64,000 nucleotides of DNA from Pricia mediterranea (GTDB lineage Bacteria > Bacteroidota > Bacteroidia > Flavobacteriales > Flavobacteriaceae): NCBI RefSeq assembly GCF_032248455.1, contig NZ_JAVTTP010000001.1, forward strand, positions 3,570,001 to 3,634,000, given 5' to 3'. Shown one piece after another: positions 4,985 through 47,792 of the stretch. Under the pieces are notes generated by a model. It saw nothing but the letters and a program-made list of their open reading frames with translations. It had not been told where the DNA came from and ran no database searches. The translations under genes and the position numbers were made by a program. Positions within the stretch are counted from its first letter, which is position 1. Each line of letters starts with the position of its first letter.

Positions 4985-6367
4985 ATGAAACATAATCTTC
5001 TCTTATTTGTCATGCTCCTCTGCCTATCGTGCGGGGACCAAAAGCAGTCGGAAAACATGACAAGTAAACCCACTTCGTCCGAAGTACAGCTGATGACACT
5101 AGATCCCGGCCATTTTCACGCCGCTTTGGTCCACAAAACCATGTATCCGCAGGTCGATTCCACCATCTATGTCTTTGCGCCCGAAGGTCCCGAGGTGAAG
5201 GATTTTTTAAACAAGATCGAACAGTACAATACGCGAGATACAGCTCCTACCGATTGGAACCTTGAAACCTATTTGGGCGAGGACTTTGCCGAAAAGATGA
5301 TTATGCAAAAACCGGGAAACGTGATGGTCGTGGCCGGGAAGAACTCCAAGAAGATCGACTACGTATTGGCGGCGGTCAAAGCGGGCTTGAACGTTTATGC
5401 GGACAAACCCTTGGTCATCAATCCCGATGGCTTTGTAAAACTAAAGGAGGCCTTTCGGATCTCCGATGAAAAAGGGGTCTTGATCTACGATATCATGACA
5501 GAGCGTTTTGAGGCTACGACAGGTTTACAGAAATTGTTTTCGACCCTGCCCGATATTTTTGGAGAGCTGGTAGAGGGCAGTGTGGAGCGTCCCGCCATCA
5601 GTAAGGAAAGCGTGCACCATTTTTTTAAATATGTCTCAGGAAATCCGTTGGTGCGTCCCCCTTGGTTTTTCGATATCAACGAAGAGGGCGAGGGCATAGT
5701 GGACGTCACTACGCACCTGGTCGATCTCATACAATGGGAAGCTTTTCCCGAGGAGGTTATCGACACGGCCAATATCGATATGCTCCGGGCCAAACGCTGG
5801 CCCACGGTACTCACTTCGGAAGAGTTCGAAAATGTGACCGGCTTTTCGGAATTTCCGGACTATCTAGAAAAGGATGTCGTCGATGGAAACCTACACGTGT
5901 ATTGCAACGGTGTGATGGACTATACCATCAACGGGCATCATGCCAAAGTATCGGTAACCTGGAATTACCGCGCCCCTGAAGGTACCGGCGATACACACTA
6001 CAGCATTATGCGGGGCACCCGTAGCGACCTGGTCATCGAACAGGGGGCGGAAGAGGATTTCAAACCGGTGCTTTATATCGAAGCCAAGGACAATGCTGAT
6101 TGGGAGGCATCCCTACAGGGGGCGCTGGAAAACCGGATATCCAAGGAGTTTCCGGGTACGACCATGGAAAAGGTGTCCGACCGGCGATATAAAATCATTA
6201 TCCCCGAAAAATTCAAGGTGGGCCACGAGGCTCATTTTGCGCAAGTCACAGAAAATTATCTCGACTATTTGGAGACCAAAGAACTTCCTTCTTGGGAGGT
6301 GCCGAACATGATCGGCAAATATTATACGACCATCGAGGCCTATAAAATGGCTAAAGATAGTTTATGA
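4985..6367 (+). CDS. Gfo/Idh/MocA-type lipoprotein with oxidoreductase C-terminal domain
   Basis: 460 residues with a lipoprotein signal (LLCLSCGDQ, lipid Cys near residue 16). The N-terminal half keeps a Rossmann-like layout (VMVVAGKNSKKIDYV, then ADKPLVINPDGF, equivalent to the EKP motif). The C-terminal half resembles the putative oxidoreductase C-terminal domain found in Bacteroidota. A lipid anchor on a nicotinamide-type oxidoreductase is unusual and matches the other exported proteins of this cluster. The classic GxGxxG loop is not obvious, so cofactor binding may be altered. The last codons (tttatga) fall inside an octamer repeat that continues downstream. Confidence 0.8.
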   Translation: MKHNLLLFVMLLCLSCGDQKQSENMTSKPTSSEVQLMTLDPGHFHAALVHKTMYPQVDSTIYVFAPEGPEVKDFLNKIEQYNTRDTAPTDWNLETYLGEDFAEKMIMQKPGNVMVVAGKNSKKIDYVLAAVKAGLNVYADKPLVINPDGFVKLKEAFRISDEKGVLIYDIMTERFEATTGLQKLFSTLPDIFGELVEGSVERPAISKESVHHFFKYVSGNPLVRPPWFFDINEEGEGIVDVTTHLVDLIQWEAFPEEVIDTANIDMLRAKRWPTVLTSEEFENVTGFSEFPDYLEKDVVDGNLHVYCNGVMDYTINGHHAKVSVTWNYRAPEGTGDTHYSIMRGTRSDLVIEQGAEEDFKPVLYIEAKDNADWEASLQGALENRISKEFPGTTMEKVSDRRYKIIIPEKFKVGHEAHFAQVTENYLDYLETKELPSWEVPNMIGKYYTTIEAYKMAKDSL

Positions 6368-6399
6368 GATTATGGGTTTATACGTTTATGAGGTTATAA
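6360..6399 (+). repeat. Degenerate octamer repeat (GTTTATGG family), five units
   Basis: Five consecutive 8-bp units can be read: gtttatga, gattatgg, gtttatac, gtttatga, ggttataa. The first unit contains the stop codon of the upstream dehydrogenase. The same octamer family recurs near 26474, 41267 (reverse strand) and 47705. Confidence 0.65.
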
Positions 6400-6464
6400 A
6401 TTTTGGGGGTACCGTTCGTTAAAGCTCATGTTTATTCGAGGGTTACGGATCAATGGAGAATTCG

Positions 6465-7136
6465 CTATAAAAGATAGGCCATTCCGATTCCTAGGATAAT
6501 CACGGCTATTTTCCCCAGATTGAATTGATGGCCTTCTGAGCTCTCAAAGAGTATAATCGTGGAAATGTGAAGAAACACTCCGATGACCAAAGCGGTAATA
6601 GGCACATAGTATATTTCTACAAAATTCGAATGTGAGGCGATATAACTTCCGAGCGGAGTCATCAAAGAGAACGCAACCACGAATAAAAGGGCTTGTCCGA
6701 ATTTTATTTTCGAATTCAACAGAAATATACTCAGGATGAGGGCAATAGGTATTTTATGGATCAGTACGGCGTAGAGAATCCTATTGTGCCTTTCTATCGG
6801 AAATCCCTCTAAAAGGGAGTGGATACATAAGCTAACGAACAAAAGAATCGGAAAATCGGTCTTTGCTTTATCGATATGTACGTGACCGTGCTCGGCCCCC
6901 TTTGAGAAGAATTCCAAAAAAACCTGCAGCAATATGCCGAGCATGACAAAGACCCCAACGGTCTTGGCATCCGCTTTTTCATAGACTTCGGGCAATAGCT
7001 CAAAAACGGTCAAAGACAGTAAAAAAGCGCCACTAAAGGCCAATAGCAGCTTGAAATGGTTCTTGTTCTTCGGTTTGACAATGAATACGAAGGCAAAACT
7101 GAGCAGAACGGCTAAAATGAGGAGTAAATAGTTCAT
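6465..7136 (-). CDS. ZIP family metal transporter
   Basis: 223 residues, almost entirely hydrophobic, with about seven to eight membrane segments. A hydrophilic His-containing loop (HGHVHIDK, about residue 105) follows TM3. The ZIP signature lies in the following segments (SLCIHSLLEGFPIERHN and LIHKIPIALILS), which supply the intramembrane His/Glu metal ligands. ZIP proteins move zinc, iron or manganese into the cytoplasm. The gene stands alone and converges with the upstream dehydrogenase gene. Which metal it carries is not visible. Confidence 0.85.
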   Translation of the reverse strand: MNYLLLILAVLLSFAFVFIVKPKNKNHFKLLLAFSGAFLLSLTVFELLPEVYEKADAKTVGVFVMLGILLQVFLEFFSKGAEHGHVHIDKAKTDFPILLFVSLCIHSLLEGFPIERHNRILYAVLIHKIPIALILSIFLLNSKIKFGQALLFVVAFSLMTPLGSYIASHSNFVEIYYVPITALVIGVFLHISTIILFESSEGHQFNLGKIAVIILGIGMAYLL

Positions 7137-7229
7137 AGGTGCGAGCAGTTTTGTCCCGTTGGTCCGATGCTTCCCTCCGGAAATTGGGATTTGTGATTCG
7201 GAATTTTCCCCAATGGGGCTAATTTACCT

Positions 7230-7237
7230 TATTTTTG
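7230..7237 (+). promoter_or_regulatory. -7 promoter element upstream of the THUMP methyltransferase
   Basis: TATTTTTG matches the Bacteroidota -7 consensus TAnnTTTG. No clean -33 TTG is seen. The start codon is 184 nt away only because a MITE-like element lies in between; without the element and one TAA copy, about 20 nt would separate TTTG from the ATG, as at other genes here. Confidence 0.5.
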
Positions 7238-7249
7238 ACAAAATCCTAA

Positions 7250-7410
7250 GAGACTGTTTTGAAATGTGTGATTAGAATTTTTATGAGCTATTTTTGATGC
7301 AGTTTTAGGCAAAATTTTTTAGCATAGCCGTAGCTATGGTCAAAAATTTTAATGAAGAAATGCGCAAAAAGGGCCCTAAAGAAATAATTGACATAATTTA
7401 AAACAGTCTC
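7250..7410. mobile_element. 161-bp MITE-like palindromic element with TAA target duplication
   Basis: Perfect 11-bp terminal inverted repeats (GAGACTGTTTT at 7250-7260 and its complement at 7400-7410) are flanked on both sides by TAA (7247-7249 and 7411-7413). The whole element is an imperfect palindrome centred at 7330, with a tight central stem (catagc-cgta-gctatg) extended by A/T tracts. It has no coding capacity. A 3-bp TNA duplication and GAG ends are features described for the IS1031 group of the IS5 family, so it may be mobilised by such a transposase; that link is an inference. Confidence 0.8.
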
Positions 7411-7421
7411 TAAAACAGCTT

Positions 7422-8579
7422 ATGAATAATAATTTTAAGATGGTCGCCAAGACGATGTTCGGCTTTGAGGAAATCTTGGCCAAGGAAATCCGAAATCTGG
7501 GCTGTGCGAACGTAACAGAGGGAATCCGAAGTGTCACTTTCGAAGGTGATACCGGATTTATGTACAAGGCCAATCTCTGTCTGCGTACCGCAATCAAGAT
7601 CATTAAGCCCATCCATTCCTTTTCGGTCCGCAACGAGGATGAACTCTATAAAAAAATATATACGATGGATTGGTCGGAATTGCTTTCCATCGATACGACG
7701 TTTGCAATCGATGCTACGGTAAACTCCGATAATTTCACCCACTCGCTTTACGTATCCCAAAAGGTCAAGGATGCCATCGTCGATAAATTTAGGGAGATGG
7801 ATGGCAGCCGCCCCGACGTGGACGTAAAATCACCGGACGTGCGGATCAACGTCCATATCAACAAGCAGCTGTGTACGGTTTCCTTGGATAGTTCGGGAAG
7901 ATCGCTACACCATCGCGGATATCGAACCGCCACCAACATTGCCCCGATCAACGAGGTACTGGCAGCGGGACTGCTATTGTTCAGCGGTTGGGACGGGCAA
8001 TGTGATTTTTTGGACCCTATGTGTGGGAGCGGAACTATTTTGACCGAAGCAGCGATGATTGCATGTAACATTCCCGCGAATATCAACCGAAAGGGGTTTG
8101 CCTTTGAGAAATGGCATGATTTCGATCAAGATCTTTACGATAAGATTGTCGAGGTCAGTCTGAACAAGGCACGGGAATTCCACCATAAAATCGTGGGATA
8201 CGATAAGGCACCTTCCGCAGTGCGCAAGGCGCAAGATAATATCGAAAATGCCAACCTGTCCGAATACATTAGCATAGAACGCAAAAACTTTTTCAATACC
8301 GAAAAGTTTACCGAGAACAAGCTGCACATGGTTTTCAATCCGCCTTACGGGGAAAGGCTCAATTTGGATATGGAGGAGTTCTACGCGGCCATCGGCGATA
8401 CGCTAAAACAAAACTACCCCGGTACGGAAGCCTGGTTTATCACTTCAAATTTGGAGGCCTTGAAGTACGTGGGACTGTGTACTTCCCGAAGAATAAAGGT
8501 CTATAATAGCCATTTGGAATCCCGGTTGGTGAAGTACGTGATGTACGAAGGTAGCAAGAAGGCCAAGCACCGGGATTGA
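7422..8579 (+). CDS. THUMP-domain class I SAM-dependent RNA methyltransferase (RlmL N-domain/YpsC type)
   Basis: 385 residues. An N-terminal ferredoxin-like/THUMP region (about 1-160) is followed by a Rossmann methyltransferase. Motif I is DPMCGSGTILTEA (about residue 198), and the catalytic N6/N2-type motif is NPPYGERL (about residue 306). The architecture equals the N-terminal half of E. coli RlmL, which makes m2G2445 in 23S rRNA, and Firmicute YpsC. The expected role is 23S rRNA guanine-N2 methylation in the cytoplasm. A MITE-like hairpin ends 11 nt before the ATG and probably lies in the mRNA leader. Confidence 0.88.
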   Translation: MNNNFKMVAKTMFGFEEILAKEIRNLGCANVTEGIRSVTFEGDTGFMYKANLCLRTAIKIIKPIHSFSVRNEDELYKKIYTMDWSELLSIDTTFAIDATVNSDNFTHSLYVSQKVKDAIVDKFREMDGSRPDVDVKSPDVRINVHINKQLCTVSLDSSGRSLHHRGYRTATNIAPINEVLAAGLLLFSGWDGQCDFLDPMCGSGTILTEAAMIACNIPANINRKGFAFEKWHDFDQDLYDKIVEVSLNKAREFHHKIVGYDKAPSAVRKAQDNIENANLSEYISIERKNFFNTEKFTENKLHMVFNPPYGERLNLDMEEFYAAIGDTLKQNYPGTEAWFITSNLEALKYVGLCTSRRIKVYNSHLESRLVKYVMYEGSKKAKHRD

Positions 8580-8762
8580 CGCTGGATTTAGGACGAAAAT
8601 TCATCTTTTGCGGTTGGACGATTTTCTCCTGTCGATAAAGTGGAGATTCGGTATTCCTTCCGTTTCAATCTAGCTTTGGTCATGGAAAAATGCTAATTGG
8701 GTCTCAATTAAAGAGGATTGATTGCTCGGGTCAAACCATTGTCAATTGGCAGGTCGCTGGCG

Positions 8763-9692
8763 CTAAAAATTATTGATCGGGTCGTTGTCGGAAGGGCCAT
8801 CAGCAGCGGGAATTTCATCTGTTGGGATATCTTCAAAGGGCATCTCATCGCCGGAATCCTCTTCGGCGGGATCTACCTCCGCGGGAATCGTTTGGGCGGG
8901 AGTTATGATTTCCCCGGTCCCTATTCTTTTTGGTACACTGGCTTTTTTGTAGAAAGGAATCAGATAGGTAATCGAATAGTTATATCCGACCCCAAAATTA
9001 CTGCCTTCGGTGACCTTATTAAAGCCTGGAATAAACTGGTTCTGAAAATTATCGGGGTCTTTGGTCAATGGCTGTACCAGATACGCCAGGCGTACGCTTC
9101 CTCCGAAATATAGGTTTTTGACTATTTCGGCCTTAAATCCCACCACAAATTCAAGCCAGGCCGCTGAAAGGCCGTTAAATTCCAGTTCTTGCTGCGAACC
9201 GAACGCAAAATCATCGGGATTCCAGTACCGGTCCGTATCGAAGATTTTATAGTCGTTGACCGTCTGGCTGAAGTTACTGTAGGCCAGGCGGCCACCAATG
9301 AATATCATGTTCTGTTCCCCGTACCAGTTGCCGTAGGTATTATAATCGATGCCGGCCTTGATATAGCTGCCCGAAGCCGTAAAGTTGTATAGTTCGCCTT
9401 CGGCGCTTTCCACCTCTTTTCCCAGCCCGACCCCTATGGTCTTCTTTTCGTTGCCGAGTTCGGCGGCAAAATAGAGTTTTTGGGTCAACCGATAATCCCC
9501 TACGATTTCCAGGCCCGTATAATCATCGTTCAACGAAGAAACCAGTATGCGGCTGACGTCAACACCCGCTCGCAATCCGTAGGATTCTTTGTACGCTGTG
9601 GTGTCACTGGGATCGAGGTCGATAGGCCGGTCTTGGGAATAGCCGGTCGCCGTGATCAGGACCAAAAAGAGACTAATGAAATATTCTGACAT
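8763..9692 (-). CDS. DUF6048 family exported protein
   Basis: 309 residues with a signal peptide (about residues 1-19, ending ATGYSQ). The body has alternating aromatic/hydrophobic strands and segments such as YSITYLIPFYKK, suggesting an outer-membrane beta-barrel. The last 40 residues are acidic and Pro-rich, with repeats of the type EDIPTDEIPAADGPSDND. In Flavobacteriia DUF6048 genes lie directly downstream of DUF6452 and rlmD, as here. Its start overlaps the end of the DUF6452 gene by 20 bp, so the pair is translationally coupled. Function unknown. Confidence 0.8.
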   Translation of the reverse strand: MSEYFISLFLVLITATGYSQDRPIDLDPSDTTAYKESYGLRAGVDVSRILVSSLNDDYTGLEIVGDYRLTQKLYFAAELGNEKKTIGVGLGKEVESAEGELYNFTASGSYIKAGIDYNTYGNWYGEQNMIFIGGRLAYSNFSQTVNDYKIFDTDRYWNPDDFAFGSQQELEFNGLSAAWLEFVVGFKAEIVKNLYFGGSVRLAYLVQPLTKDPDNFQNQFIPGFNKVTEGSNFGVGYNYSITYLIPFYKKASVPKRIGTGEIITPAQTIPAEVDPAEEDSGDEMPFEDIPTDEIPAADGPSDNDPINNF

Positions 9693-10161
9693 GGGTAGAG
9701 GCTGTATTTTCGATAAAGCTACTATCTACGGCAATCCGCTGTAGCCAAAGGCTATCGTCTTGTTGTACGGCGGCCTGTAGGGAATCGTAACGCACAACAT
9801 AGCCACAGGCCCTCGATGCGAATACTTCTTTTGGATTATAGGTAAAACTAAGGGTATCGATATTGATATCGGTGATGCTGGTCTGGCGCGAAAACGTAAA
9901 GGTCGTGCTCGACTTGCCCGGGCGCAGGGGCAGCACAATGGAGTCCAAGGTCAGGTTTGGAATTGTATCTCGAAGACCCGTCTCACCGACCCCGATCACC
10001 ACCAAGTTCTGCACGTCTTTGGATAGCGTTGTATCGAGGGCATCCATAAACCGGATGACCAACCGGGGCGTATCGGCATCGATACAGATGTCGTCTTTTT
10101 CGCAGGCGGAAAAAGATAGGATGCCGAGCAGCACGATAAGCGGTATTCTAAGCTTGCGCAT
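9673..10161 (-). CDS. DUF6452 family lipoprotein
   Basis: 162 residues with a lipoprotein signal (LLGILSFSACEKDDIC, lipid Cys about residue 20). A conserved start, CxxDDICxxxDTPRLVIRFMD, identifies the DUF6452 family, small Bacteroidota lipoproteins of unknown role. Two further Cys (IC after the lipobox and ACGYVVRYD) could form a disulphide. It overlaps rlmD by 14 bp upstream and DUF6048 by 20 bp downstream, forming a tight three-gene operon. This suggests co-expression with the methyltransferase rather than a shared reaction. Confidence 0.8.
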   Translation of the reverse strand: MRKLRIPLIVLLGILSFSACEKDDICIDADTPRLVIRFMDALDTTLSKDVQNLVVIGVGETGLRDTIPNLTLDSIVLPLRPGKSSTTFTFSRQTSITDINIDTLSFTYNPKEVFASRACGYVVRYDSLQAAVQQDDSLWLQRIAVDSSFIENTASTHVRIFH

Positions 10162-11578: not shown

Positions 11579-11582
11579 GGCG

Positions 11583-11590
11583 CAAAAGTA
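11583..11590 (-). promoter_or_regulatory. -7 promoter element of rlmD
   Basis: The minus strand reads TACTTTTG (consensus TAnnTTTG), separated by only four bases from the rlmD ATG. Transcription would begin at or within the start codon, predicting a leaderless mRNA. Confidence 0.55.
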
Positions 11591-11783
11591 AGGAAAGAAA
11601 ATTCAAGTTCAAGTCCGGATTTAGTCTCAACATGCTATCACACCCCACTTATCACCCATCGTCCGTTCTTTCTCCCATCCCTCGTCACCCATCTCCACCG
11701 CCCACCACAAGTGACGAACTATCATCCCCGCCCTTAGTACTTCCCTATTCCGTCATTCATCTTTCCATTATCATGTTTTAATC

Positions 11784-12055
11784 CGTCTTCGGTCATCGGT
11801 CAACCGTCTTTTTTTTCCTCGGTCCTTCCTTAATTCCGTCATTTATCTTTTCATCTTCATTTTTTTCCCGTCTTCGGTCATCAGTCATCGGTCACCCGTC
11901 ACCACCGCTCCCCACGAGTCACGGACCATCATCCTCTCCGTTCTTCTTCCTTCCGTCATTCATCCTTTCGTCACTTCTTCAGTCATCGATTTCCCGTCTT
12001 CCGTCAATCCCTCCGTCACCCGACTTCCGTCCTCCGTCATCGGTCTTCCGATCCT
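11784..12055 (+). repeat. Degenerate heptamer repeat tracts (CGTCATC/GGTCATC type)
   Basis: The 639-bp gap between rlmD and rocD is pyrimidine-rich and carries period-7 tracts: cgtcttc-ggtcatc-ggtcaac-cgtcttt (11784-11811), cgtcttc-ggtcatc-agtcatc-ggtcacc-cgtcacc (11869-11903) and cgtcacc-cgacttc-cgtcctc-cgtcatc-ggtcttc-cgatcct (12014-12055). The flanking sequence back to about 11640 looks like older, eroded copies. No gene or RNA is recognisable in this gap. Confidence 0.7.
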
Positions 12056-12062
12056 TTTTCCG

Positions 12063-12070
12063 TATTTTTG
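12063..12070 (+). promoter_or_regulatory. Candidate -7 promoter element of rocD
   Basis: TATTTTTG fits TAnnTTTG and lies directly after the heptamer tract. No good -33 TTG is seen. It would give a leader of about 140 nt before the rocD ATG at 12218. Confidence 0.4.
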
Positions 12071-12217
12071 TGACACTGCAAGGATGATTTCTCTCCTACG
12101 CTGAATTTTCGAAACTTCGAAAGGATAAAGGTACAGCAGGAATTACTGAAGTCGGACGGAGACCCGTTTGAAATCCATATGGTAGATTTCGAGAGGGTCT
12201 CGCAAAGTAATTTTATC

Positions 12218-25724: not shown

Positions 25725-26462
25725 TTATTCCCGCCATATCTCCCAGGCCCTATCTGCCTGAAGCTGCAGCATTCGGAGTCCGTTCACGGTATCGGCACCG
25801 CGCTTTTCACCTTCTTTCAGAAATTCGGTTTTTTCCGGATTGTAGATCAGGTCGAAAAGCAGGTGTTTGTCCGTGATATGGGAATAGGGAATATTGGGTT
25901 TCTGATCGATGTTCGGATGCGTGCCGAGAGGCGTACAGTTGACCAAAACGGGATGGTTTTGCAACACCGAGCGGTTCAGGGCGGCGTAGCCCATCTGCGA
26001 TGTATCGGGATTCCTGGAGACGTATGTGACGGCAATCCCCATCTGCCCCAAAACGTAGGCGATAGCTTTCGAGGCCCCGCCCGTTCCGAGAATTAGGGCG
26101 TTGGTGTGGTGGGATTTTAAAAATGTTCCGATGGATTTTTGAAAACCGTAGGCGTCGGTATTATAGCCGATACGACGGTTCCCATCGAGCTTTATGGTAT
26201 TGACCGCGCCAATATTCTCCGCTTGGCTGTCCAATGCATCCAAATAAGACATTACTTCTTGTTTATAGGGGATGGTAACGTTCAATCCCTGTAAATCGGA
26301 ATGGGTTTCCACCAGAGCGGGAAATTCGCCGATGTGCGGCAAATCAAAATTTTCATAGGAATACCCCTCCAATCCCAAATCGGAGAACTTTTTGGTGAAA
26401 TATCCCTTGGAAAAAGAATAGGAGATGTTTTTTCCTACTAGTCCGAACCTGTGTTTTGCCAT
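25725..26462 (-). CDS. aroE: Shikimate dehydrogenase
   Basis: 245 residues. The substrate-binding start (GLVGKNISYSFSKGYF) is followed by GLNVTIPYKQEV, containing the catalytic Lys, AVNTIKLD, a NADP-binding loop (LGTGGASKAIAYVL) and NTDAYGFQKS. AroE reduces 3-dehydroshikimate to shikimate with NADPH in aromatic amino-acid synthesis. The length is slightly below the ~270 usual in Proteobacteria but normal for Bacteroidota. Downstream on the same strand is the DUF349 gene (139-bp gap); upstream is a repeat-filled spacer to a PopT gene. Confidence 0.93.
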   Translation of the reverse strand: MAKHRFGLVGKNISYSFSKGYFTKKFSDLGLEGYSYENFDLPHIGEFPALVETHSDLQGLNVTIPYKQEVMSYLDALDSQAENIGAVNTIKLDGNRRIGYNTDAYGFQKSIGTFLKSHHTNALILGTGGASKAIAYVLGQMGIAVTYVSRNPDTSQMGYAALNRSVLQNHPVLVNCTPLGTHPNIDQKPNIPYSHITDKHLLFDLIYNPEKTEFLKEGEKRGADTVNGLRMLQLQADRAWEIWRE

Positions 26463-26473: not shown

Positions 26474-26497
26474 GTTTATGGGTTTATGGGTTTATGG
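26474..26497 (+). repeat. Octamer repeat GTTTATGG, three perfect units
   Basis: Three identical 8-bp units between aroE and the PopT gene. This is the cleanest example of an octamer family also seen near 6360, 41267 (reverse strand) and 47705. Confidence 0.85.
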
Positions 26498-26563
26498 GAT
26501 TTCAGAAGTTGCTTCCTACTGGTACTAAATGCTTTCGGCATCCTTATTTCAACTACCGCAAAC

Positions 26564-26598
26564 TACTAAATGCTCAATACTAACTACTTAATGCTCTT
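26564..26598 (+). repeat. Degenerate heptamer repeat (TACTAAA/TGCTCAA) covering the PopT stop codon
   Basis: Five 7-bp units in register: tactaaa, tgctcaa, tactaac, tacttaa, tgctctt. The stop codon (26584-26586, minus strand) and the last three codons of the PopT gene lie inside the array. Confidence 0.6.
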
Positions 26599-39382: not shown

Positions 39383-39494
39383 GTCTAATGTCTAATGTCT
39401 AATGTCTAATGTCTAATGTCTAATGTCTAATGTCTAATGTCTAATGTCTAATGTCTAATGTCTAACGTCTAACGTCTAACGTCTAACGTCTAAC
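39383..39494 (+). repeat. Perfect 7-bp tandem repeat, 16 units, overlapping the 3' end of a gene
   Basis: Eleven units of gtctaat (39383-39459) are followed by five of gtctaac (39460-39494), with no interruption. On the minus strand, units at the right end encode the last residues and stop codon (tag) of the TrmH-type methyltransferase. The unit is far too short for CRISPR, and the array has no spacers. Confidence 0.95.
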
Positions 39495-40307
39495 ACGTAA
39501 CTCCCCCCGCTGCCGTTTGGCCTCAAAGATAAGGATCGCGGCGGAGACCGATACGTTCATGGAGTCGATTTCCCCGGCCATGGGGATAATAATATTTTGA
39601 TCGGAATTATCGAGCCATTCCCGGGAGAGTCCCGTTGCCTCCGTACCGACTACAATGGCGGAAGCTGCATTAAAATCTACTTCCGTGTAGGTTGTCGAGG
39701 CCGCTAAGTCGGCGCAATAACATGTAATGTCGGCGCGCTTTAAAAAGGATATGATTTCGGATGTGCTTCCCACTGCGATGTTGTTCGTGAAAATACAGCC
39801 GACACTAGAGCGGATGGTATTGGGGTTGTAGAGGTCGGTCTTCGGATTGGCGATTAGGATCGCATCAAGGCCGGCGGCATCCGCGGTACGGAGCAGGGCC
39901 CCGATATTTCCCGGCTTTTCGGGCGCCTCCGCAATCAGGATCAATGGATTTCGGGTTGCTAAGGAAAGCGTTTCAAGGGAATGGGATTTGTCGTGGACCA
40001 AGGCCAGTACCCCTTCCGTTGTCTTTCGATAAGCAAGCTTCCCATAGACCTCCTTGCTGAGTCTCACGATTTGTGGAGGGGTCTCAAAGGCTTCCGTCAG
40101 CTTGCGGATTTTATCTTCGGAAACCATCCCATCCTGAAATAAAATGGTATCCAAGAAGTAGTTGCCTTTGACCGCCAACTGCAGCTCCCGCAATCCCTCC
40201 AGTACAAAAAGTCCCGTTTTTTTCCGTTCCCTCGACTTGTTCTGCAAGACCCCTATTTTTTTGACCAACGGGTTCTGTAGACTCTGGATCTCTTTCATTT
40301 CAAACAT
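39483..40307 (-). CDS. TrmH/SpoU family RNA 2'-O-methyltransferase
   Basis: 274 residues. The N-terminal substrate-binding region (SLQNPLVKKIGVLQNKSRERKKTGLFVLEG) is followed by a SPOUT knot domain with PEKPGNIGALLRTADAAG, the SAM-binding loop IVVGTEATGLSREW and IPMAGEIDSMNVSVSAAI. The family methylates a ribose in tRNA or 23S rRNA. The final Arg-Arg and stop codon derive from a heptamer array, so the original C-terminus has been replaced or trimmed. A start at 40298 is also possible, because the -7 motif is only 4 nt before 40307. Confidence 0.9.
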   Translation of the reverse strand: MFEMKEIQSLQNPLVKKIGVLQNKSRERKKTGLFVLEGLRELQLAVKGNYFLDTILFQDGMVSEDKIRKLTEAFETPPQIVRLSKEVYGKLAYRKTTEGVLALVHDKSHSLETLSLATRNPLILIAEAPEKPGNIGALLRTADAAGLDAILIANPKTDLYNPNTIRSSVGCIFTNNIAVGSTSEIISFLKRADITCYCADLAASTTYTEVDFNAASAIVVGTEATGLSREWLDNSDQNIIIPMAGEIDSMNVSVSAAILIFEAKRQRGELRVRR

Positions 40308-40311
40308 CCTA

Positions 40312-40319: not shown

Positions 40320-40458
40320 AGTAAAACGGTGAAAGCCTGATCGGGGGAGGTGTTTTTCAATATAACGTCTTTTAATTTACGGCAGATGCGGGCAAACGCC
40401 CTAATCAACGAATGGAATTGTATTGTATATGGCGTATCGTTTTATTTTAAGTAACTTG

Positions 40459-40466
40459 TATCTTTG
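40459..40466 (+). promoter_or_regulatory. -7 promoter element of the molybdenum cofactor operon
   Basis: TATCTTTG, 22 nt before the moaD ATG at 40489. It lies inside the longer frame starting at 40423, which supports the shorter MoaD of standard length. Confidence 0.55.
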
Positions 40467-40488
40467 TAAATCTAATCGCGCAGGGATT

Positions 40489-40731
40489 ATGGAATTATTG
40501 ATGTTTGGAGTCGCCAAGGACATCGTAGGGCAAAGTTCTTTTCGTTTTGACGAAGGGGACATTATCCCTAAATCGGTATCGGAATTGAAGGATAAATTAA
40601 AGGCAACGTTCCCCGAATTTAAGAAGCTCTCTTCTTTGGCCGTAGCGGTAAACAACGAGTACGCCGAAGAAAATGAGGTGTTGAAGGAAGGGGATGAAAT
40701 TGCGATAATTCCACCCGTAAGCGGCGGTTAA
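40489..40731 (+). CDS. moaD: Molybdopterin synthase sulfur carrier subunit MoaD
   Basis: 80 residues from the ATG at 40489, the family length; the frame upstream to 40423 is non-conserved and contains the -7 motif. It is a ubiquitin-like fold ending in IIPPVSGG, whose C-terminal Gly-Gly is adenylated and then thiocarboxylated to donate sulphur to the pterin. It is the first gene of a seven-gene plus-strand run. moaE starts 15 bp later, and the activating E1-like enzyme is four genes downstream of moaE. Confidence 0.9.
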   Translation: MELLMFGVAKDIVGQSSFRFDEGDIIPKSVSELKDKLKATFPEFKKLSSLAVAVNNEYAEENEVLKEGDEIAIIPPVSGG

Positions 40732-40746
40732 CAGAGCGATGAATAT

Positions 40747-41187
40747 ATGGCCGTGAAGAAGAACCTAAAAGGAAATACAGTTGTAGAGATTGTCGATGTA
40801 CTCAATACCTCCGACGTTTTTAAGGAGCTTTCGCATCCCCATAGCGGTGGTAGCTGTGTTTTCGTGGGAACGGTTCGGGGATTTACCAAAAACGAACAGG
40901 TGCTGTCGCTGGAATTCGAGGCGTATAAGGCCATGGCCATTATCGAAATGGAAAAGATTGCCCGTGAGGCTTCCGAAAAATGGGCATTGAACCAGGTCAT
41001 TGTCCGCCATGCGGTCGGAACGAAGCAAATCGAGGATCCTGTGGTCGTGGTGGGGGCTTCCTCCGCGCATCGGGATGACTGTTTTGAGGCCTGTCGCTAT
41101 TTGATCGATATCCTTAAAGAACGTGTGCCCATTTGGAAAAAGGAACGGTTTAAGAATAAATCCGTCTGGGTTTCGGCGCATCCTTGA
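40747..41187 (+). CDS. moaE: Molybdopterin synthase catalytic subunit MoaE
   Basis: 146 residues. GGSCVFVGTVRGFTKNEQVLSLEFEAYKAMA and VGASSAHRDDCFEACRYLID, ending with VPIWKKERFKNKSVWV (catalytic Lys region), match MoaE throughout. Together with MoaD it converts cyclic pyranopterin monophosphate to molybdopterin. The gene ends just before a heptamer repeat that begins 3 bp after its stop. Length and motifs are normal. Confidence 0.93.
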   Translation: MAVKKNLKGNTVVEIVDVLNTSDVFKELSHPHSGGSCVFVGTVRGFTKNEQVLSLEFEAYKAMAIIEMEKIAREASEKWALNQVIVRHAVGTKQIEDPVVVVGASSAHRDDCFEACRYLIDILKERVPIWKKERFKNKSVWVSAHP

Positions 41188-41190
41188 TAG

Positions 41191-41239
41191 TACTAAGTAC
41201 TAAGTATTAAGTATTGAGTACAAAGAGCCAAGAGTCATG
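41191..41239 (+). repeat. Degenerate heptamer repeat (TACTAAG), seven units, between moaE and moaA
   Basis: Units in register: tactaag, tactaag, tattaag, tattgag, tacaaag, agccaag, agtcatg. They start 3 bp after the moaE stop and become less alike with distance. Confidence 0.7.
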
Positions 41240-41266
41240 ACAAAAACTGGAGCCGGTTGCTGAAAA

Positions 41267-41298
41267 CCGTAAACTAATAAATCCATAAACTAATAAAC
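41267..41298 (-). repeat. Octamer repeat (GTTTATTA/GTTTATGG), four units, before moaA
   Basis: On the minus strand: gtttatta, gtttatgg, atttatta, gtttacgg. This belongs to the same octamer family as 26474-26497 but is inverted. It ends 6 bp before the GTG start of moaA. Confidence 0.65.
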
Positions 41299-41304
41299 TC
41301 AAAA

Positions 41305-42288: not shown

Positions 42289-42293
42289 GGATA

Positions 42294-42376
42294 GACTTGG
42301 GACTTGGGACTTGGGTGGCGAGATGAGCGTTGAGACGTGAGATGAACGTTGAGACGTGAGATGAGCGTTGAAATGA
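42294..42376 (+). repeat. Tandem repeats between moaA and moaC (7-bp and 19-bp units)
   Basis: Three perfect units of gacttgg (42294-42314) begin 5 bp after the moaA stop. Then gatgagcgttgagacgtga occurs at 42322-42340, again with one change at 42341-42359, and partially at 42360-42376. Further eroded copies (aaatgagaagtg, twice) fill the spacer to about 42420. Confidence 0.8.
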
Positions 42377-42460
42377 GAAGTGCGGAATGCAAAATGAGAA
42401 GTGGGCAATGAGAAGCGCTAAGTGCAATTTTGGAGAGGGAAATTTAAAATAGGAGACTGA

Positions 42461-42940
42461 ATGTCGGATAAAAAAAAACTTTCACACCTCGATGCTTCCG
42501 GAAACCCCGTCATGGTCGATGTCTCCGATAAAAAGGTGACCGCGCGAACCGCAATTGCGAGCGGACGGGTGGAGTTTCCATCGGAGGTGTTCGGTACCTT
42601 GTCGGAGCAGGATTTTTTGGGAAAGAAGGGAAGCATCATCCAAACTGCGGTGATTGCCGGGATACAAGCGGTCAAAAAGACCTCGGAGTTGATTCCCCTT
42701 TGCCATCAGATCAACCTGTCAAAGGTGCATATCGATATCCATCCGAAAGAAAACAGATTGGATATCCGTTGTACCGTAAAATGTAGCGAACGGACCGGGG
42801 TCGAAATGGAGGCCCTGACCGGGGTTTCGGTCAGTGCCCTTACGATTTACGACATGTGCAAGGCTTTGTCTCACGATATAAAAATTTCCGATATCCGATT
42901 GGAACGAAAAACAGGAGGAAAACATGATTATAGGGCCTAA
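42461..42940 (+). CDS. moaC: Cyclic pyranopterin monophosphate synthase MoaC
   Basis: 159 residues. SHLDASGNPVMVDVSDK at the start, then KKTSELIPLCHQINLSKV, GVEMEALTGVSVSALTIYDMCKA and ERKTGGKHD are the full MoaC signature, including the active-site Lys near the C-terminus. It converts 3',8-cyclo-GTP to cyclic pyranopterin monophosphate directly after MoaA. The end overlaps mobA by 17 bp, so translation is coupled. Confidence 0.95.
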   Translation: MSDKKKLSHLDASGNPVMVDVSDKKVTARTAIASGRVEFPSEVFGTLSEQDFLGKKGSIIQTAVIAGIQAVKKTSELIPLCHQINLSKVHIDIHPKENRLDIRCTVKCSERTGVEMEALTGVSVSALTIYDMCKALSHDIKISDIRLERKTGGKHDYRA

Positions 42941-43523
42941 AATTTACGGGTTGGTACTCGCCGGAGGGAAAAGTACCCGCATGGGAAAAGATAAGGGTAT
43001 GATTCCCTATCACGGCATGCCGCAACGGGAATACCTGTACCATCTATTGAGCCGGGTATGTGAGCAAACGTTTGTAAGTATCCGCCCGGACCAAAAGAAG
43101 AATTTTCCCAAAGATATGGAATCCATCGTCGACAATGATTCGTACAAAGGACCTTACAACGGACTCCTCTCCGCCCACGAAAAATTGCCAGAGGCGGCCT
43201 GGCTGGTACTGGCCTGCGACCTGCCCCTGATCGACCTGGCGTCGCTGCAGGAACTCATTGCGGCCCGGGACCCGAACGCGATGGCGAGCGCTTTTGCGCA
43301 CAAAGAAAATCCACTGCCCGAACCCCTTTGCGCCATCTGGGAGCCTCGGTCATTTGAAGCTTCAAAGGCGTATTTGGAAAGCGGGAACGGCACCTGCCCC
43401 CGGAAATTCTTGATCAACAACGAAACGAAACTCGTATTTCCCAGAGATCCGAACGTCTTGATGAACGCCAATTCGGAGGAAGAGTACAAAGAGGCCATCG
43501 TCAGATTACGAACGGAACGATGA
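42924..43523 (+). CDS. mobA: Molybdenum cofactor guanylyltransferase MobA-like
   Basis: 199 residues. The nucleotidyltransferase loop LVLAGGKSTRMGKDKGMIPY, the metal-binding segment WLVLACDLPLIDLASLQEL and the short length match MobA, which adds GMP to molybdopterin to form the guanine-dinucleotide cofactor. A MobA-like cytidylyl enzyme (MocA) is possible but less likely from the context. It overlaps moaC upstream (17 bp) and the moeB-like gene downstream (4 bp, ATGA). Confidence 0.82.
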   Translation: MIIGPKIYGLVLAGGKSTRMGKDKGMIPYHGMPQREYLYHLLSRVCEQTFVSIRPDQKKNFPKDMESIVDNDSYKGPYNGLLSAHEKLPEAAWLVLACDLPLIDLASLQELIAARDPNAMASAFAHKENPLPEPLCAIWEPRSFEASKAYLESGNGTCPRKFLINNETKLVFPRDPNVLMNANSEEEYKEAIVRLRTER

Positions 43524-44593
43524 ACTTAGAACGATATCAACGACAGACCGCGCTGGCCGGTTTTGGCCTCGCGGCACAACAAAAGCTGCATCAGGCCAAA
43601 GTACTGGTGGTCGGTGCGGGAGGGCTGGGCGTTCCTGTGCTTACCTACTTAAATGCGATGGGGGTCGGAACCTTGGGAATCGTCGAAAGGGATACGGTCT
43701 CGCTCTCGAATTTACAACGACAGGTGCTGTATTCCGAAGCCGATGTAAACCGACCTAAGTTGGCGAGCGCGCTAAAAAAGTTGCGGGCACAGAATTCCGA
43801 AACCGTTTTCAAGACCTACGAAACCTTTTTGAGCCGGGAAAATGCCATGCGAATTCTCGCCGATTACGACGTGGTGGTCGATGCTACCGATAATTTCCCG
43901 ACCCGATATCTGATCAATGACGCCTGTGTTATCTTAAGAAAGCCTATGGTGTACGGCGCCTTACACGGATTTGAAGGCCAAGTCAGCGTTCTCAATTTTG
44001 AAGGGGGACCGACCTATCGCTGTCTTTTCCCGAACATGCCTAAATTCGATGAGGTCCCCGATTGCAACGAAAACGGCGTGTTGGGAATACTTCCCGGCAT
44101 TATCGGAAACCTTCAGGCCCTTGAAACGGTCAAGCTGCTCACGGGTGTGGGGGAGGTACTTTCGGGCAAGCTGCTCTTGTTCGACGCGCTCTCGAATACT
44201 TTTCAGAATATACGCTTTGCAGCCAAGCCAGAAAATTTGAAAATCGATGCTTTGCGGCCCAGCTATGATTTCGATTGCGGCTCCGGATTTAAGTCCATGG
44301 ATGCCGAAACCTTTCTGAATCTCAAGGCGCTCGAAAGCCGACAACTTATTGATGTGCGTACGCCTAAGGAGTTTGAACGCAATCATTTACAGATTGCCAA
44401 AAATATTCCTAGCTCCGAGTTGGAAAACCGACAGCAACAAATCGATTTTGAGGAAGAAATATATGTCGTTTGCCAATCGGGTATACGAAGCAAAAAGGCT
44501 ATCGAACGGCTTCTCGACTTGCATCCTGATGCCGATTGCACCAACATTACCGGGGGGATGAACCAGATCAGGAAGCATGCTATTACCCATTGA
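43520..44593 (+). CDS. moeB: MoeB/ThiF-type E1-like adenylyltransferase fused to a rhodanese domain
   Basis: 357 residues. The adenylation domain has VVGAGGLGVPVLTYL (about residue 30), NLQRQVLYSEADVNRPK, ATDNFPTRYLIND and a conserved Cys in EVPDCNENGVLG (about 182). The zinc CxxC pairs of E. coli MoeB are not evident. The C-terminal ~90 residues are a rhodanese with VVCQSGIRSKKA (active Cys about 318). The fusion resembles human MOCS3, which both adenylates the sulphur carrier and donates sulphur. Here it should activate MoaD. It overlaps mobA and the exporter gene at its two ends. Confidence 0.87.
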   Translation: MNLERYQRQTALAGFGLAAQQKLHQAKVLVVGAGGLGVPVLTYLNAMGVGTLGIVERDTVSLSNLQRQVLYSEADVNRPKLASALKKLRAQNSETVFKTYETFLSRENAMRILADYDVVVDATDNFPTRYLINDACVILRKPMVYGALHGFEGQVSVLNFEGGPTYRCLFPNMPKFDEVPDCNENGVLGILPGIIGNLQALETVKLLTGVGEVLSGKLLLFDALSNTFQNIRFAAKPENLKIDALRPSYDFDCGSGFKSMDAETFLNLKALESRQLIDVRTPKEFERNHLQIAKNIPSSELENRQQQIDFEEEIYVVCQSGIRSKKAIERLLDLHPDADCTNITGGMNQIRKHAITH

Positions 44594-45353
44594 AAGTCTC
44601 ATAATCCTTTGTTTGGGATTCTTTGTGGTGGCGACGCTTTACTCCTCCGTCGGTTTTGGCGGTGGATCGAGCTATCTGGCCTTGTTGGCCCTGTTTTTGG
44701 GGAGCTTCTTTGCCATCCGTTCTATCGCCCTGATCTGTAACTTGATCGTGGTTTCCGGCAGTTCTTATCTCTATTTTAAAAACGGACACGCCCAACTACG
44801 GGATTTTCTCCCCTTCGTCCTTACTAGCATTCCCATGGCCTTTATCGGGGCATCCTTCCGATTGGAGGAGCATGTGTTTTTTATTTTATTGGGACTTTCC
44901 CTGGTCACCTCGTCCCTGTTTTTGGCTTGGCAGACGTTTTCCAAGAAAAACCTGGCCGAACGGGCTAAAGGATATCCCAAGTACCTCACCTATGTCCTCG
45001 GTGGGGGTATCGGGCTCTTATCGGGACTCGTAGGTATCGGGGGCGGTATATTTCTGGCCCCGATACTCAATCACCTGAGGTGGGATAAATCCATCAAGAT
45101 CGCCGCCTTGGCCAGCTTTTTTATCTTGGTCAATTCCATATCGGGAATTGCAGGCCTGGTTTGGGGCGATATGTTGAGATTACCCTGGAAAGAGACCTTG
45201 GCATTTGGCGCCGCAGTGCTGATCGGTGGACAGTTGGGCATCCGGATAAGTTTGAAGCGATTGACCCCGAACGGAATAAAAAGAGTGACCGCATTGTTGG
45301 TATTTGTCGTCGGAATCCGAATTTTGATGAAATTTTTGCCCCAGATATTTTAA
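44577..45353 (+). CDS. TSUP (TauE/SafE) family membrane exporter
   Basis: 258 residues with about eight membrane helices in two halves. TLYSSVGFGGGSSYLALLALF opens the first half and GGGIGLLSGLVGIGGGIFLAPIL the second, the repeated G-rich motif of TauE/SafE. The family moves sulphur-containing anions such as sulphite or sulphoacetate. Overlap by 17 bp with the moeB-like gene places it in the cofactor operon. A sulphite link to a molybdenum sulphite oxidase is plausible but not shown here. Confidence 0.85.
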   Translation: MLLPIESLIILCLGFFVVATLYSSVGFGGGSSYLALLALFLGSFFAIRSIALICNLIVVSGSSYLYFKNGHAQLRDFLPFVLTSIPMAFIGASFRLEEHVFFILLGLSLVTSSLFLAWQTFSKKNLAERAKGYPKYLTYVLGGGIGLLSGLVGIGGGIFLAPILNHLRWDKSIKIAALASFFILVNSISGIAGLVWGDMLRLPWKETLAFGAAVLIGGQLGIRISLKRLTPNGIKRVTALLVFVVGIRILMKFLPQIF

Positions 45354-45410
45354 AGCTTGCCATTGACAATCGGCGTGATCGTGCAAAAATTTTAGGTTTA
45401 AGCGCTACTT

Positions 45411-45530
45411 CGTAGCTGTTCAAGGTTCAAGTGCCAACTACGTAGCTGTTCAAGGTTTAAGGATGTTTTTTAGACTATGAGCTTAAAACTTAAAACTTAA
45501 AACTTGAACCTTGTGCCTTGATCCTTGAAC
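45411..45530 (+). repeat. Direct repeats and heptamer array after the molybdenum operon
   Basis: cgtagctgttcaaggtt(c/t)aag occurs at 45411-45431 and 45441-45461. Seven perfect-register heptamers follow at 45482-45530: cttaaaa three times, cttgaac, cttgtgc, cttgatc, cttgaac. The segment caaggttcaag (45421-45431) is the exact reverse complement of cttgaaccttg (45503-45513), so the region can form a hairpin. Confidence 0.8.
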
Positions 45531-45606
45531 GATCCCTTCAGGCATAATTGAACTATAAATCTTTCAAACTACTACATTTGTCCAATAACCTATAAATCTT
45601 TTTTGC

Positions 45607-46239
45607 TTGAAAACGCTGCTACACCCCACCTATTTTCCCGATATCGCCGCCTTTGCCACCATGGTCCAGAACGACATTCAATGGGAGGTGGAAGACAATT
45701 ACCAGAAACAGACCTACCGCAACCGCTGTTACGTCTGTACCGATCAGGGACGGCACATGCTCAGCATCCCCATTCAACACGTGGGCGGGGAGCAGGGGCG
45801 TCAAAAGTACAAGGAGGTCTTGCTGGACAATTCCTATCCGTGGCAGCGGCAACATTGGCGTACCTTGCAAACGGCCTACAGAACCTCGCCTTTCTTCGAG
45901 TTTTACGAAGACGATATCGCTCCCTTGTACGAAGGGTCTTTTGAGAGGCTGTTGGACTTTAATCTATCGACCATACAAGCCATCTGTGATTGCCTACAAG
46001 TCGAAATGCCGGAGGCAAAAACCGAAACTTATCGAACGGAGCCCGACGGGGTCAACGATTTACGAATCTTGGTCGATGCCAAAAAAAAGCTTGATATGCG
46101 GCAAGAAGAATACGTACAGGTGTTCGGTGACCGACATGGCTTTGTACAAAATGTCAGCGTGCTGGATCTCTTGTTCAACGAGGGAACGAACGCATTGAAA
46201 TACTTGCAAAATCAAGATACAAACTTCGGAAATGTTTAG
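45607..46239 (+). CDS. WbqC-like family protein
   Basis: 210 residues from a TTG start (KTLLHPTYFPDIAAFATMVQ). The conserved WbqC-like pattern is present: P-x-YFP near the N-terminus, an NRCYV segment, WQRQHWRTLQTAYRTSPFFEFY in the middle, and SVLDLLFNEG near the end. WbqC-like proteins are associated with surface polysaccharide loci, but their reaction is not established. The end overlaps the DUF6122 gene by 8 bp, so the two are translated together. Confidence 0.8.
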   Translation: MKTLLHPTYFPDIAAFATMVQNDIQWEVEDNYQKQTYRNRCYVCTDQGRHMLSIPIQHVGGEQGRQKYKEVLLDNSYPWQRQHWRTLQTAYRTSPFFEFYEDDIAPLYEGSFERLLDFNLSTIQAICDCLQVEMPEAKTETYRTEPDGVNDLRILVDAKKKLDMRQEEYVQVFGDRHGFVQNVSVLDLLFNEGTNALKYLQNQDTNFGNV

Positions 46240-46540
46240 GTTTCTCATCCATTATGGCATTCATTTTTTGCTTCCGGTAGCCATTGGATTGCTCTTTTTT
46301 AAACGGCATCGATTTCGGGTAATCCTAATCTTACTGGCGGGCATCGCCATCGATATCGACCACGTAGTGGCGGACCCCATCTTTGACCCCGAGCGATGCA
46401 GTGTCGGATTTCATCCCTTGCATAGCTATTGGGCGATTGCAGGGTATTTCGGATTGCTCTTTTTCAAGAAGACTTGGATTTTCGGTCTCGCCCTGGTCAT
46501 CCATATTTTCGCGGATGTCATGGATTGCTATCTGATGTGA
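46232..46540 (+). CDS. DUF6122 family small membrane protein
   Basis: 102 residues with three membrane helices. IDIDHVVADPIFDPERCSVGFHPLHSYW is the diagnostic segment: clustered His and Asp residues (DIDH, FHPLHS) resemble the metal-binding motif of membrane metal-dependent hydrolases (YdjM/LexA-binding type). In the Bacteroidota the family is short, as here. It overlaps the WbqC-like gene. Function unknown; the His/Asp pattern suggests a bound metal. Confidence 0.75.
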   Translation: MFRFLIHYGIHFLLPVAIGLLFFKRHRFRVILILLAGIAIDIDHVVADPIFDPERCSVGFHPLHSYWAIAGYFGLLFFKKTWIFGLALVIHIFADVMDCYLM

Positions 46541-46672
46541 TGGCCTTTTAGTTGTTGAAACCTTAAATTTCTTGTCTCGATGAACTTCTATCATCTAAAA
46601 TCCCATGCAATCAATTGATTATTTGATAACTGTTTAGCAACGATGGGCCAACGACCGGGGCAATAGTTCTGA

Positions 46673-47698
46673 CTATTCCTTCAAGCGAAACGATGCCATA
46701 ATAGGATAATGGTCCGAATACCGATAATCGTAGTGCTTGTGCGATCGGACCTCGAACGCACTATCCGCCATGATAAAATCTATGCGCAATGGAACGTTAA
46801 AAAATTCAAAGGTACGTCCATAGCCCGATCCCGCTTCGATAAAACTATCCTGCATGTTACCCTTCAGTAAGTGATAGGCTTTGGAGAACTGGGTATTGTT
46901 GAAATCCCCGCAGAGCATGGTTTTATAGGGGCTGTCATCAATAAGCCGTCTAATCATTTCCGCCTGTTCTTCCTGTTTTTTGAAAGCTCTTACGACTCTT
47001 TTGTACAAGCGTTTGGAAGAGTGGGAACCCAGCACTCCCGTGCCCGGGGTAATGCCCAAAGACTGCATGTGTACGTTGAAAACCCGGAGGGTATCCTTAT
47101 GGTACGCGATATCTACATACGAGCCGTTGTTGATACTGTTGGGGAAAGTCACAGTTTTGGCGGCCACAATCGGATATTTTGAAAAGACACCTAGATGTAC
47201 CTTTTCCCCGCCCGATATTTTCTTTAGGTAATGGTACGGGTAGTCCAGGAATTCTTTTTTCATGCCGATGCTTACTTCCTGAAAACAAACGATATCGGGC
47301 TGTTCCGCCTGTACGAAATCCCTAACGGCGTTGAATATATTTTTACGTTCCTTCCACCCCTGTTCGTTAAAGCTCTCCACATTATAGCTCATTATTTTTA
47401 AATCGTCGGTTTGGAATTGGTCGTTGGAGGAATTCATCTTCACGAATGTTCCCAGCACAAAATAGCCGAGTACGAGCACAAAAAGAGAGGGGAGCGATTG
47501 TCGCTTTACCCGAAGGGCCCAATAGATAAAAAAGAGGACGTTGACCCCTACAAGAACCGGTACGCCCAAACTTAAAAAGGATAGAACCGGAAGGAACTTA
47601 ACGCTCAGATACGGAACTGTACATGCAATCAATAAGAGGATGACAAAGACGAGGTTGAGCGCATATACCAGTTTGTTGAAAGCGGATAGTCCCTTCAC
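46673..47698 (-). CDS. Endonuclease/exonuclease/phosphatase family membrane protein
   Basis: 341 residues. Three N-terminal membrane helices (about 10-95) precede an EEP catalytic domain: MSYNVESFNEQG, IVCFQEVS (metal-binding Glu), MLCGDFNNTQFS (Asp/Asn pair) and YSDHYPIMASF (catalytic Asp-His). All catalytic residues are present. Substrates of this fold range from DNA to phospholipids and phosphoinositides; the helices place the active site at the membrane. Upstream spacer DNA holds both octamer and heptamer repeats. Confidence 0.88.
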   Translation of the reverse strand: MKGLSAFNKLVYALNLVFVILLLIACTVPYLSVKFLPVLSFLSLGVPVLVGVNVLFFIYWALRVKRQSLPSLFVLVLGYFVLGTFVKMNSSNDQFQTDDLKIMSYNVESFNEQGWKERKNIFNAVRDFVQAEQPDIVCFQEVSIGMKKEFLDYPYHYLKKISGGEKVHLGVFSKYPIVAAKTVTFPNSINNGSYVDIAYHKDTLRVFNVHMQSLGITPGTGVLGSHSSKRLYKRVVRAFKKQEEQAEMIRRLIDDSPYKTMLCGDFNNTQFSKAYHLLKGNMQDSFIEAGSGYGRTFEFFNVPLRIDFIMADSAFEVRSHKHYDYRYSDHYPIMASFRLKE

Positions 47699-47704
47699 AG
47701 TTAA

Positions 47705-47736
47705 GTTTATGGGTTTAGGAGTTTACGGGTTTATGA
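47705..47736 (+). repeat. Octamer repeat (GTTTATGG family), four units
   Basis: Units: gtttatgg, gtttagga, gtttacgg, gtttatga, immediately upstream of the EEP gene start (minus strand, 47698). Confidence 0.7.
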
Positions 47737-47757
47737 GGCTTCCTATATTAACTCCTT

Positions 47758-47792
47758 GATTTGGAATTTGGTATTTGTTTTTTGCAATTTGC
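47758..47792 (+). repeat. Heptamer repeat (AATTTGG), five units
   Basis: Units: gatttgg, aatttgg, tatttgt, tttttgc, aatttgc. They end 11 bp before the rhomboid stop codon (47804). The related unit atttgga recurs at 57140. Confidence 0.55.

Follow-up and report, generated by a model that had tools for sequence, protein, structure and literature searches.

In this study, a stretch of 64,000 nucleotides of the Pricia mediterranea genome (the window; main-contig bases 3,570,001-3,634,000 of a three-contig, 4.57-Mb genome) was investigated for short tandem repeats of period 7 and 8 in the gaps between its genes, and the analysis was extended to 118 other stretches of 20 kb, which with the window amount to 2.42 Mb, or 53% of the genome. 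We observed that these arrays are genuine, far beyond chance and genome-wide, and that the range given for them in an earlier note on the window is not their limit. We consider it somewhat probable that they are hepta- and octanucleotide microsatellites, amplified in this lineage and confined to gaps, of the kind already known as long simple sequence repeats (LSSR) and short tandemly repeated repetitive (STRR) sequences, born by slippage and seeded by words at the edges of genes.

A total of 73 period-7 and 24 period-8 intergenic arrays were found in the sample, about 40 per Mb, occupying 78 of the 1,280 gaps that are 60 bases or longer; a single tract may count at both periods, as at locus L022. 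Genes were delimited by a simple codon-usage caller, whose stops are exact and whose starts are approximate. A tolerant detector, requiring 18 matches in 24 at the lag, was run with five shuffles of the gaps as control; in the first 1.62 Mb of the sample, including 216 kb of gap DNA, it gave 52 period-7 arrays in gaps against 2 in genes and 0.6 in shuffled gaps, and 12 of period 8 against 0 and 0.2, respectively. Multiples of these periods were also raised in gaps, namely 14 (28 arrays), 21 (19), 28 (11) and 16 (10), and no further period between 3 and 32 exceeded 6 arrays there. When exact matches at the lag were counted over 824 kb, in runs of 11 or longer, gaps had 14 of period 7 and 4 of period 8, with 0.05 per period in dinucleotide shuffles and 1 per period in genes. 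Neither outcome that the earlier note had named as speaking against its view, a lack of excess at 7 and 8 or arrays just as frequent in genes, was seen, and the sharp spectrum supports a single genome-wide phenomenon like the cyanobacterial heptanucleotide repeats. Outside this genome, the same detector found no period-7 and no period-8 array in eight loci of the Zobellia clade (L058-L065, 167 kb), four and two, respectively, in 20 loci of Aquimarina and others (406 kb), and one and two in three other Pricia loci (63 kb); the gaps of distant loci are overestimated in this comparison because Pricia codon statistics were used. Heptad arrays built of other words were also noticed in Aquimarina and outer Bacteroidota (L095:1361-1638, L099:2806-2875 and L123:7885-7966), those of L099 and L123 standing as head-to-head inverted neighbours.

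The units themselves recur. The purest unit of each array, one per 400-bp neighbourhood, was compared in all pairs, in either strand and any rotation, and the null came from drawing random gap words 200 times. Among 60 period-7 units, 26 pairs were identical (null mean 2.6, maximum 11), as were 18 pairs among 24 period-8 units (null 0.16, maximum 2). The units had been called locus-specific in the earlier note, which does not hold, as identical units occur at unlinked loci above this null. With one mismatch allowed, 43 of the 60 heptads chain together, a figure not to be over-read, and the octads form two groups, one GTTTATGG-like (14/24) and one GGATGGAA/GGACGAAA-like (7/24). The dominant octad family is GTTTATGG, the opposite strand of which displays TAAAC every 8 bases; its dimer, with up to three mismatches, is found at 181 places in its own genome, compared with 66 for the backward pattern. 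Pairs of TAAAC in Pricia gaps lie 8 bases apart in 54 cases, 7 in two and 9 in four, and the spacing of CCAAA, CTTGA, TTGGA and CAAAT pairs peaks at 7. The step is thus tied to the word within the Pricia genome, contrary to the statement that the sequence varies and only the period is constant.

The earlier note had suggested a polymerase or repair process with a step of 7-8 nucleotides. Taken as slippage with an inherent step on whatever words lie there, this is an idea already published. The sharp peaks at 7 and 8 with their multiples, and nothing comparable elsewhere, agree with it, and heptamers are described as the commonest class of 5-11-nt repeats in many bacteria (PMC4679880). Such a step alone is no explanation, because step goes with word in the Pricia genome; moreover, the units recur far beyond chance, and the directionality described below is not expected from it. 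We therefore regard an enzyme-set step as an unlikely account of the arrays.

Beyond the species, three other Pricia genomes were compared (one genome per species, about 70-80% identical to it in the region compared), which from their sequences would be P. antarctica DSM 23421 (G001), HyVt-345 (G002) and LH_M77 (G003). The exact GTTTATGG dimer was detected in three of 40 genomes, all of them Pricia, with HyVt-345 lacking it. The looser pattern TAAACN3TAAACN3TAAAC occurs in 36 of 149 genomes of the family, with 39 hits in the own genome, 56 in P. antarctica and 20 in G045, which belongs to another genus, though many of the 36 have other spacers too and the backward control also gives hits in some genomes, up to 11. 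Besides, CCAAATTCCAAATTCCAAAT was found in 12 of the 149 genomes (its control gave 12 hits, 11 of them in G137), and TAAAC at a step of 7 in 35, the own genome not being among them. No account of the octad family was found in the literature on these words or on heptamer or 7-8-bp repeats in Flavobacteria and Bacteroidetes, most subscription journals lying outside the coverage.

The octad family is oriented. Among 38 distinct TAAAC-N3-TAAAC arrays of the own sample, 19 run sense into a start and 11 antisense into a stop, four are nearer the stop behind them (two of these, at 47698 and L040, lie by eye about 10 bases before a start), three are genic, one is at an edge and none is antisense beside a start. 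The 11 arrays of P. antarctica behave similarly, with five into a start, two into a stop, three nearer the stop behind and one at an edge, and none antisense beside a start or genic. At 12 loci taken from G045, the TAAAC strand runs into the nearer edge in all 11 that have both neighbours (eight starts and three stops), and the twelfth, L271, has a single called neighbour, a start ahead. Counted per 10-base bin before starts, arrays included, TAAAC occurs 86 and 87 times in the nearest 20 bases and 30-51 times between 20 and 90. A CAAAGTT-like stretch was seen by eye after the octads at four loci, too few for a claim.

Of the 78 own gaps with arrays, 12 had an orthologous gap in the other sample, as did 10 of the 19 from congeners. 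With the same detector, none of 10 own gaps with heptad arrays has a period-7 array in the orthologous gap, and the heptads therefore turn over. Octads, read by eye, stand on both sides in four of the six orthologous pairs of gaps in which one member or the other has a called octad array: 47698 and its LH_M77 counterpart, L029 8641 and L261, L244 and L043, and L246 and L211 (there at a stop). The two gaps without shared octads are 39383 of the window, with GTCTAAT heptads instead, and L029 10899, with nothing similar; likewise, the octads of the moaA leader (41270-41299) are absent from LH_M77 and HyVt-345. The leader of ORF (open reading frame) 46673-47698 carries four octads in the own genome and in LH_M77, and one CTAAACC in HyVt-345, which is plausible as the seed of an octad array.

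These findings also bear on the possibility that tandem G-free octads before starts (CATAAACY on the mRNA; octad CATAAACC) are bound by ribosomal protein S1, or by some other RNA-binding protein, and that their copy number tunes translation, as proposed for the TAACTGA repeats. The 19 of 38 own arrays sense into a start with none antisense beside one, the nine of 12 loci in G045 and the retention in four of six orthologous gaps are in line with such a leader element. It makes no sense, however, for arrays lying antisense into a stop (11/38 own and 3/12 in G045), some orthologous leaders do without octads, and the heptads lack conservation. We judge this function rather doubtful.

Polarity is not restricted to the octads. 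It was scored in discovery DNA and in DNA held out from it, dropping arrays without two neighbours or with a G-C skew below 0.2, which kept 56 of 64 discovery arrays, 31 of 33 held-out own arrays and 16 of 19 from P. antarctica; the longest array of the window, at 39383, was left out (skew -0.09). The 5' edge of the G-rich strand was nearer the flanking ORF in 47 discovery arrays against 9, in 23 against 8 held-out own arrays (p=0.011), in 11 against 5 of P. antarctica (p=0.21), and in 34 against 13 of the held-out arrays pooled (p=0.003). Without the octad family, the own sample gave 57 against 16. Within 10 bases of a start, the 5' end of the G-rich strand is the near one in 13 arrays and the 3' end in none, and convergent gaps, which are free of leaders, gave 13 against 4 (p=0.049). 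Of the nine discovery exceptions, the ATTTGGA array at 47759 is genuine, and the one at 47702 was scored so because the caller missed the start at 47698. Divergent gaps are poor in arrays, harboring 8 of 96 with 25.5% of gap bases (p=3e-5), and convergent gaps show no clear enrichment (19/96, p=0.10). Relative to replication, the G-rich strand is the lagging one in 37 of the 56 arrays and the leading one in 19, with the origin guessed at about 2.2 Mb from GC skew.

It could be supposed that the rebuilding of a gap, as after a double-strand break, extends the 3' tail that leaves each gene edge in an iterative step of 7-8 bases with a G-rich product, so that the G-strands face inward. Polarity alike at starts and stops, with the counts above for discovery, held-out and non-octad arrays, would follow from this, as would that of the leader-free convergent gaps. 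Ku, present in 12 of the 149 family genomes, occurs in Pricia, G001, G010 and G045. On the other hand, older units were predicted on the gene-edge side, which the held-out own DNA did not show (5 vs 7; P. antarctica 5 vs 1), the array-rich genomes G092, G060, G087 and G055 lack Ku, and the recurrent words stay unexplained, so we rate this polar growth as most improbable. Nearly as improbable is a broader view in which the arrays are tracks of one directional enzyme activity common to several phyla, which at each rebuilding of a gap would extend the strand leaving the gene edge in the 5' to 3' direction, always by 7-8 bases and with a G-rich product, and would leave inward-facing G-strands at starts and stops; the polarity in Pricia, in G045 and in the published data on Xanthomonas, Nostoc and Beggiatoaceae would then be one signature of that activity.

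The tests were devised after a first look at the data, and the safeguard was to fix predictions beforehand and apply them to unseen DNA. One candidate rejected in this way is an age gradient along the arrays: 12 of 14 long pure cores in the discovery DNA had degenerate units on the gene-edge side, and unseen DNA, on which the prediction had been written down before the test, gave a pooled 10 vs 8. Ku and non-homologous end joining are likewise not supported as the cause: of the 17 array-rich genomes of the family 4 have Ku, compared with 8 of the remaining 132 (p=0.03, or 0.10 once the two Pricia are counted as one); array-rich here means at least three hits of the CAAATNNCAAATNNCAAAT control, in a list typed by hand with a cut-off chosen after viewing. 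A Ku-family gene lies at G000:C1:651501-652037, and others are found in G001, G010 and G045, all with many arrays. The idea that the arrays are hairpin halves was dropped as well. An inverted partner at p<0.05 stands in the same gap for 14 of 62 arrays, where about 3 would be expected, but a direct partner does so for 19. Related words cluster in gaps, and there is no general hairpin design.

Returning to slippage-born microsatellites as the preferred reading, a short word near a gene edge, in a translation leader or in the DNA past a stop, would be duplicated with a step of 7 or 8 bases; the array would then lengthen and shorten by slippage, decay via point mutation and eventually be replaced. 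Coding constraint would keep arrays out of genes, and before starts the need for an unstructured, G-poor leader would filter them, retaining those that are G-free in the mRNA sense. Both birth by slippage and selection on leaders are what we infer. Array-free Pricia leaders are indeed G-poor in the sense direction (template-strand G-C skew 0.20 by starts and 0.04 by stops), so the polarity at starts is partly expected, while stops have little such baseline. The filter also fits initiation in Flavobacterium johnsoniae, which is described as relying on upstream adenines and low structure, with mRNAs lacking a Shine-Dalgarno sequence (PMC6847099).

Several observations weigh against this reading. 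The main one is that the same word and step occur at many unlinked loci, which simple slippage does not provide; favoured words may have been arrived at independently, loci may have been copied from one another, or the words may serve as an element. Of the arrays lying within 10 bases of a stop, 21 have the G-strand's 5' end as the near one and 4 its 3' end, and this polarity counts against slippage because slippage has no direction. The start-side skew of the Zobellia clade is only 0.02 (44 gaps), a weak baseline for G-poor leaders. Slippage with a leader filter leaves unexplained why the step is 7-8, why words recur and why stops share the polarity.

The arrays of the window are listed in Table 1. 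Tandem period 7 or 8 (or 14/21) was recovered by Tandem Repeats Finder (TRF) at 11 of the 12 sites named earlier. The remaining one, at about 26564, was not listed by TRF; its surroundings at about 26560-26596 resemble three other places in the same genome (86-91% identity), and the site is for this reason part of a recurring tract.

Table 1. Short tandem repeats in the gaps of the window and their surroundings.
Positions	Strand	Repeat	Detection	Surroundings
6359-6397	+	octads GTTTATGR/GTTATA-like, period 8	TRF	overlap the stop codon of ORF 4985-6367, at 6365-6367; the + strand is the G-rich one, heading away from the stop
11781-12055	-	several heptad tracts, CGTCATC/CGGTCA type	TRF periods 7, 14, 21, one row of 15	divergent gap 11579-12178
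26474-26498	+	GTTTATGG x3.1, period 8; mRNA reading CCATAAAC	TRF	directly precede start of - strand ORF 25725-26462
26560-26596	.	degenerate tract, ACTAAAT/ACTTAAT-like words		
39383-39493	-	GTCTAAT/GTCTAAC x15.9, period 7	TRF	extends to stop of ORF 39483-40307 (-); LH_M77 ortholog has GTTTATGA/GTTTAGAA octads in its place
41189-41225	+	TACTAAG heptads	TRF period 7	begin at stop of MoaE-like ORF 40747-41187
41270-41299	-	TAAACTAA/TAAATCCA octads	TRF period 8	stop just short of likely GTG start (41305) of MoaA-like ORF
42294-42410	+	GACTTGG x3.1 (42294-42315), then degenerate tracts of period 19, 12, 21	TRF period 7 (42294-42315)	
45482-45530	-	CTTAAAA then CTTGAAC heptads	TRF period 7	same gap has inverted GTTCAAGG words upstream
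47704-47737	+	GTTTATGG-type octads	TRF period 8	directly precede GTG start (47698) of ORF 46673-47698 (-); counterparts: octads in LH_M77, single CTAAACC in HyVt-345, CTAAATCC in P. antarctica
47759-47777	+	ATTTGGA heptads	TRF period 7	3' of rhomboid ORF 47804-48691 (-)
57139-57164	+	AATTTGG x3.7	TRF period 7	before FKBP-like ORF (57149 by caller)

The 18 proteins beside arrays between 4985 and 59020 of the window include housekeeping families, and a surface-antigen cluster is not among them; the families noticed are MoaA, MoaC, MoaE, SpoU methylase, Shikimate_dh_N, aminotransferase III, DHH, TauE and rhomboid. Further features were also seen in the gaps. At 45400-45460 of the window and in L160, a palindromic GCTACTTCGTAGC word is followed by TGTTCAAGG, with a looser version in the array gap of L165, and at 54482-54544, after ORF 53386-54474, there is a 27-bp tandem repeat of 2.3 copies rich in palindromic CGGACCGGTCCG.

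That heptamers are in excess between bacterial genes is an old observation still lacking a mechanism, and Pricia offers a dense case, with two steps, recurring words and three congeners, that allows step, word and orientation to be told apart. The polarity at stop codons turns the old puzzle into a test, because leader selection should not act there and slippage is directionless. Should the octads prove to tune translation, a phylum not reliant on Shine-Dalgarno pairing would have in them an adjustable element of its leaders.

Heptamer direct repeats in Bacteroidetes are already known and are not new: TAACTGA and other heptamer repeats have been described from Gramella forsetii, Aequorivita sublithincola, Elizabethkingia anophelis and others (PMC4679880). 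In heptanucleotide LSSR (Mrazek et al. 2007) and cyanobacterial STRR, heptamers are the main class of 5-11-nt repeats and lie outside genes, and in the hypothesis of Mrazek et al. the step comes from a polymerase contacting about 7 nt (both as described in PMC4679880 and PMC4692102). The Pricia arrays likewise consist of tandem units of 5-11 nt above chance, with period 7 dominant and outside genes in the 1.62-Mb counts given above; they differ in having a strong octad class beside the heptads, and word recurrence and polarity were measured together here. TAACTGA repeats are known from Beggiatoaceae, some cyanobacteria and five Bacteroidetes (MacGregor 2015, PMC4679880), and for the BOGUAY genome an orientation toward starts is reported in 147 of 170 sets and toward stops in 12 (PMC4679880), which resembles the Pricia octads (19 and 11 of 38, respectively). 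They share with the Pricia arrays short intergenic tandem repeats at many loci, and orientation toward a nearby start, which in Pricia is found in the octad family only; that family has another word and an 8-base step, many words coexist, and TAACTGA is not among the units listed for the 60 period-7 neighbourhoods. The GGGNATC-type G-quadruplex heptads of Xanthomonas and Nostoc are described as intergenic and scarce between divergent ORFs (Rehm et al. 2015, PMC4692102), with the G-rich strand lying antisense immediately ahead of starts and sense immediately behind stops (PMC4692102). The Pricia arrays resemble them in being confined to gaps, rare between divergent genes and polar toward gene edges, but most of their units are without GGG (GTCTAAT, CTTAAAA, TACTAAG), GTTTATGG having a G-tract of at least 3. 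By the features tested, the arrays of Pricia belong to the broad LSSR/STRR class and to neither the TAACTGA nor the GGGNATC family.

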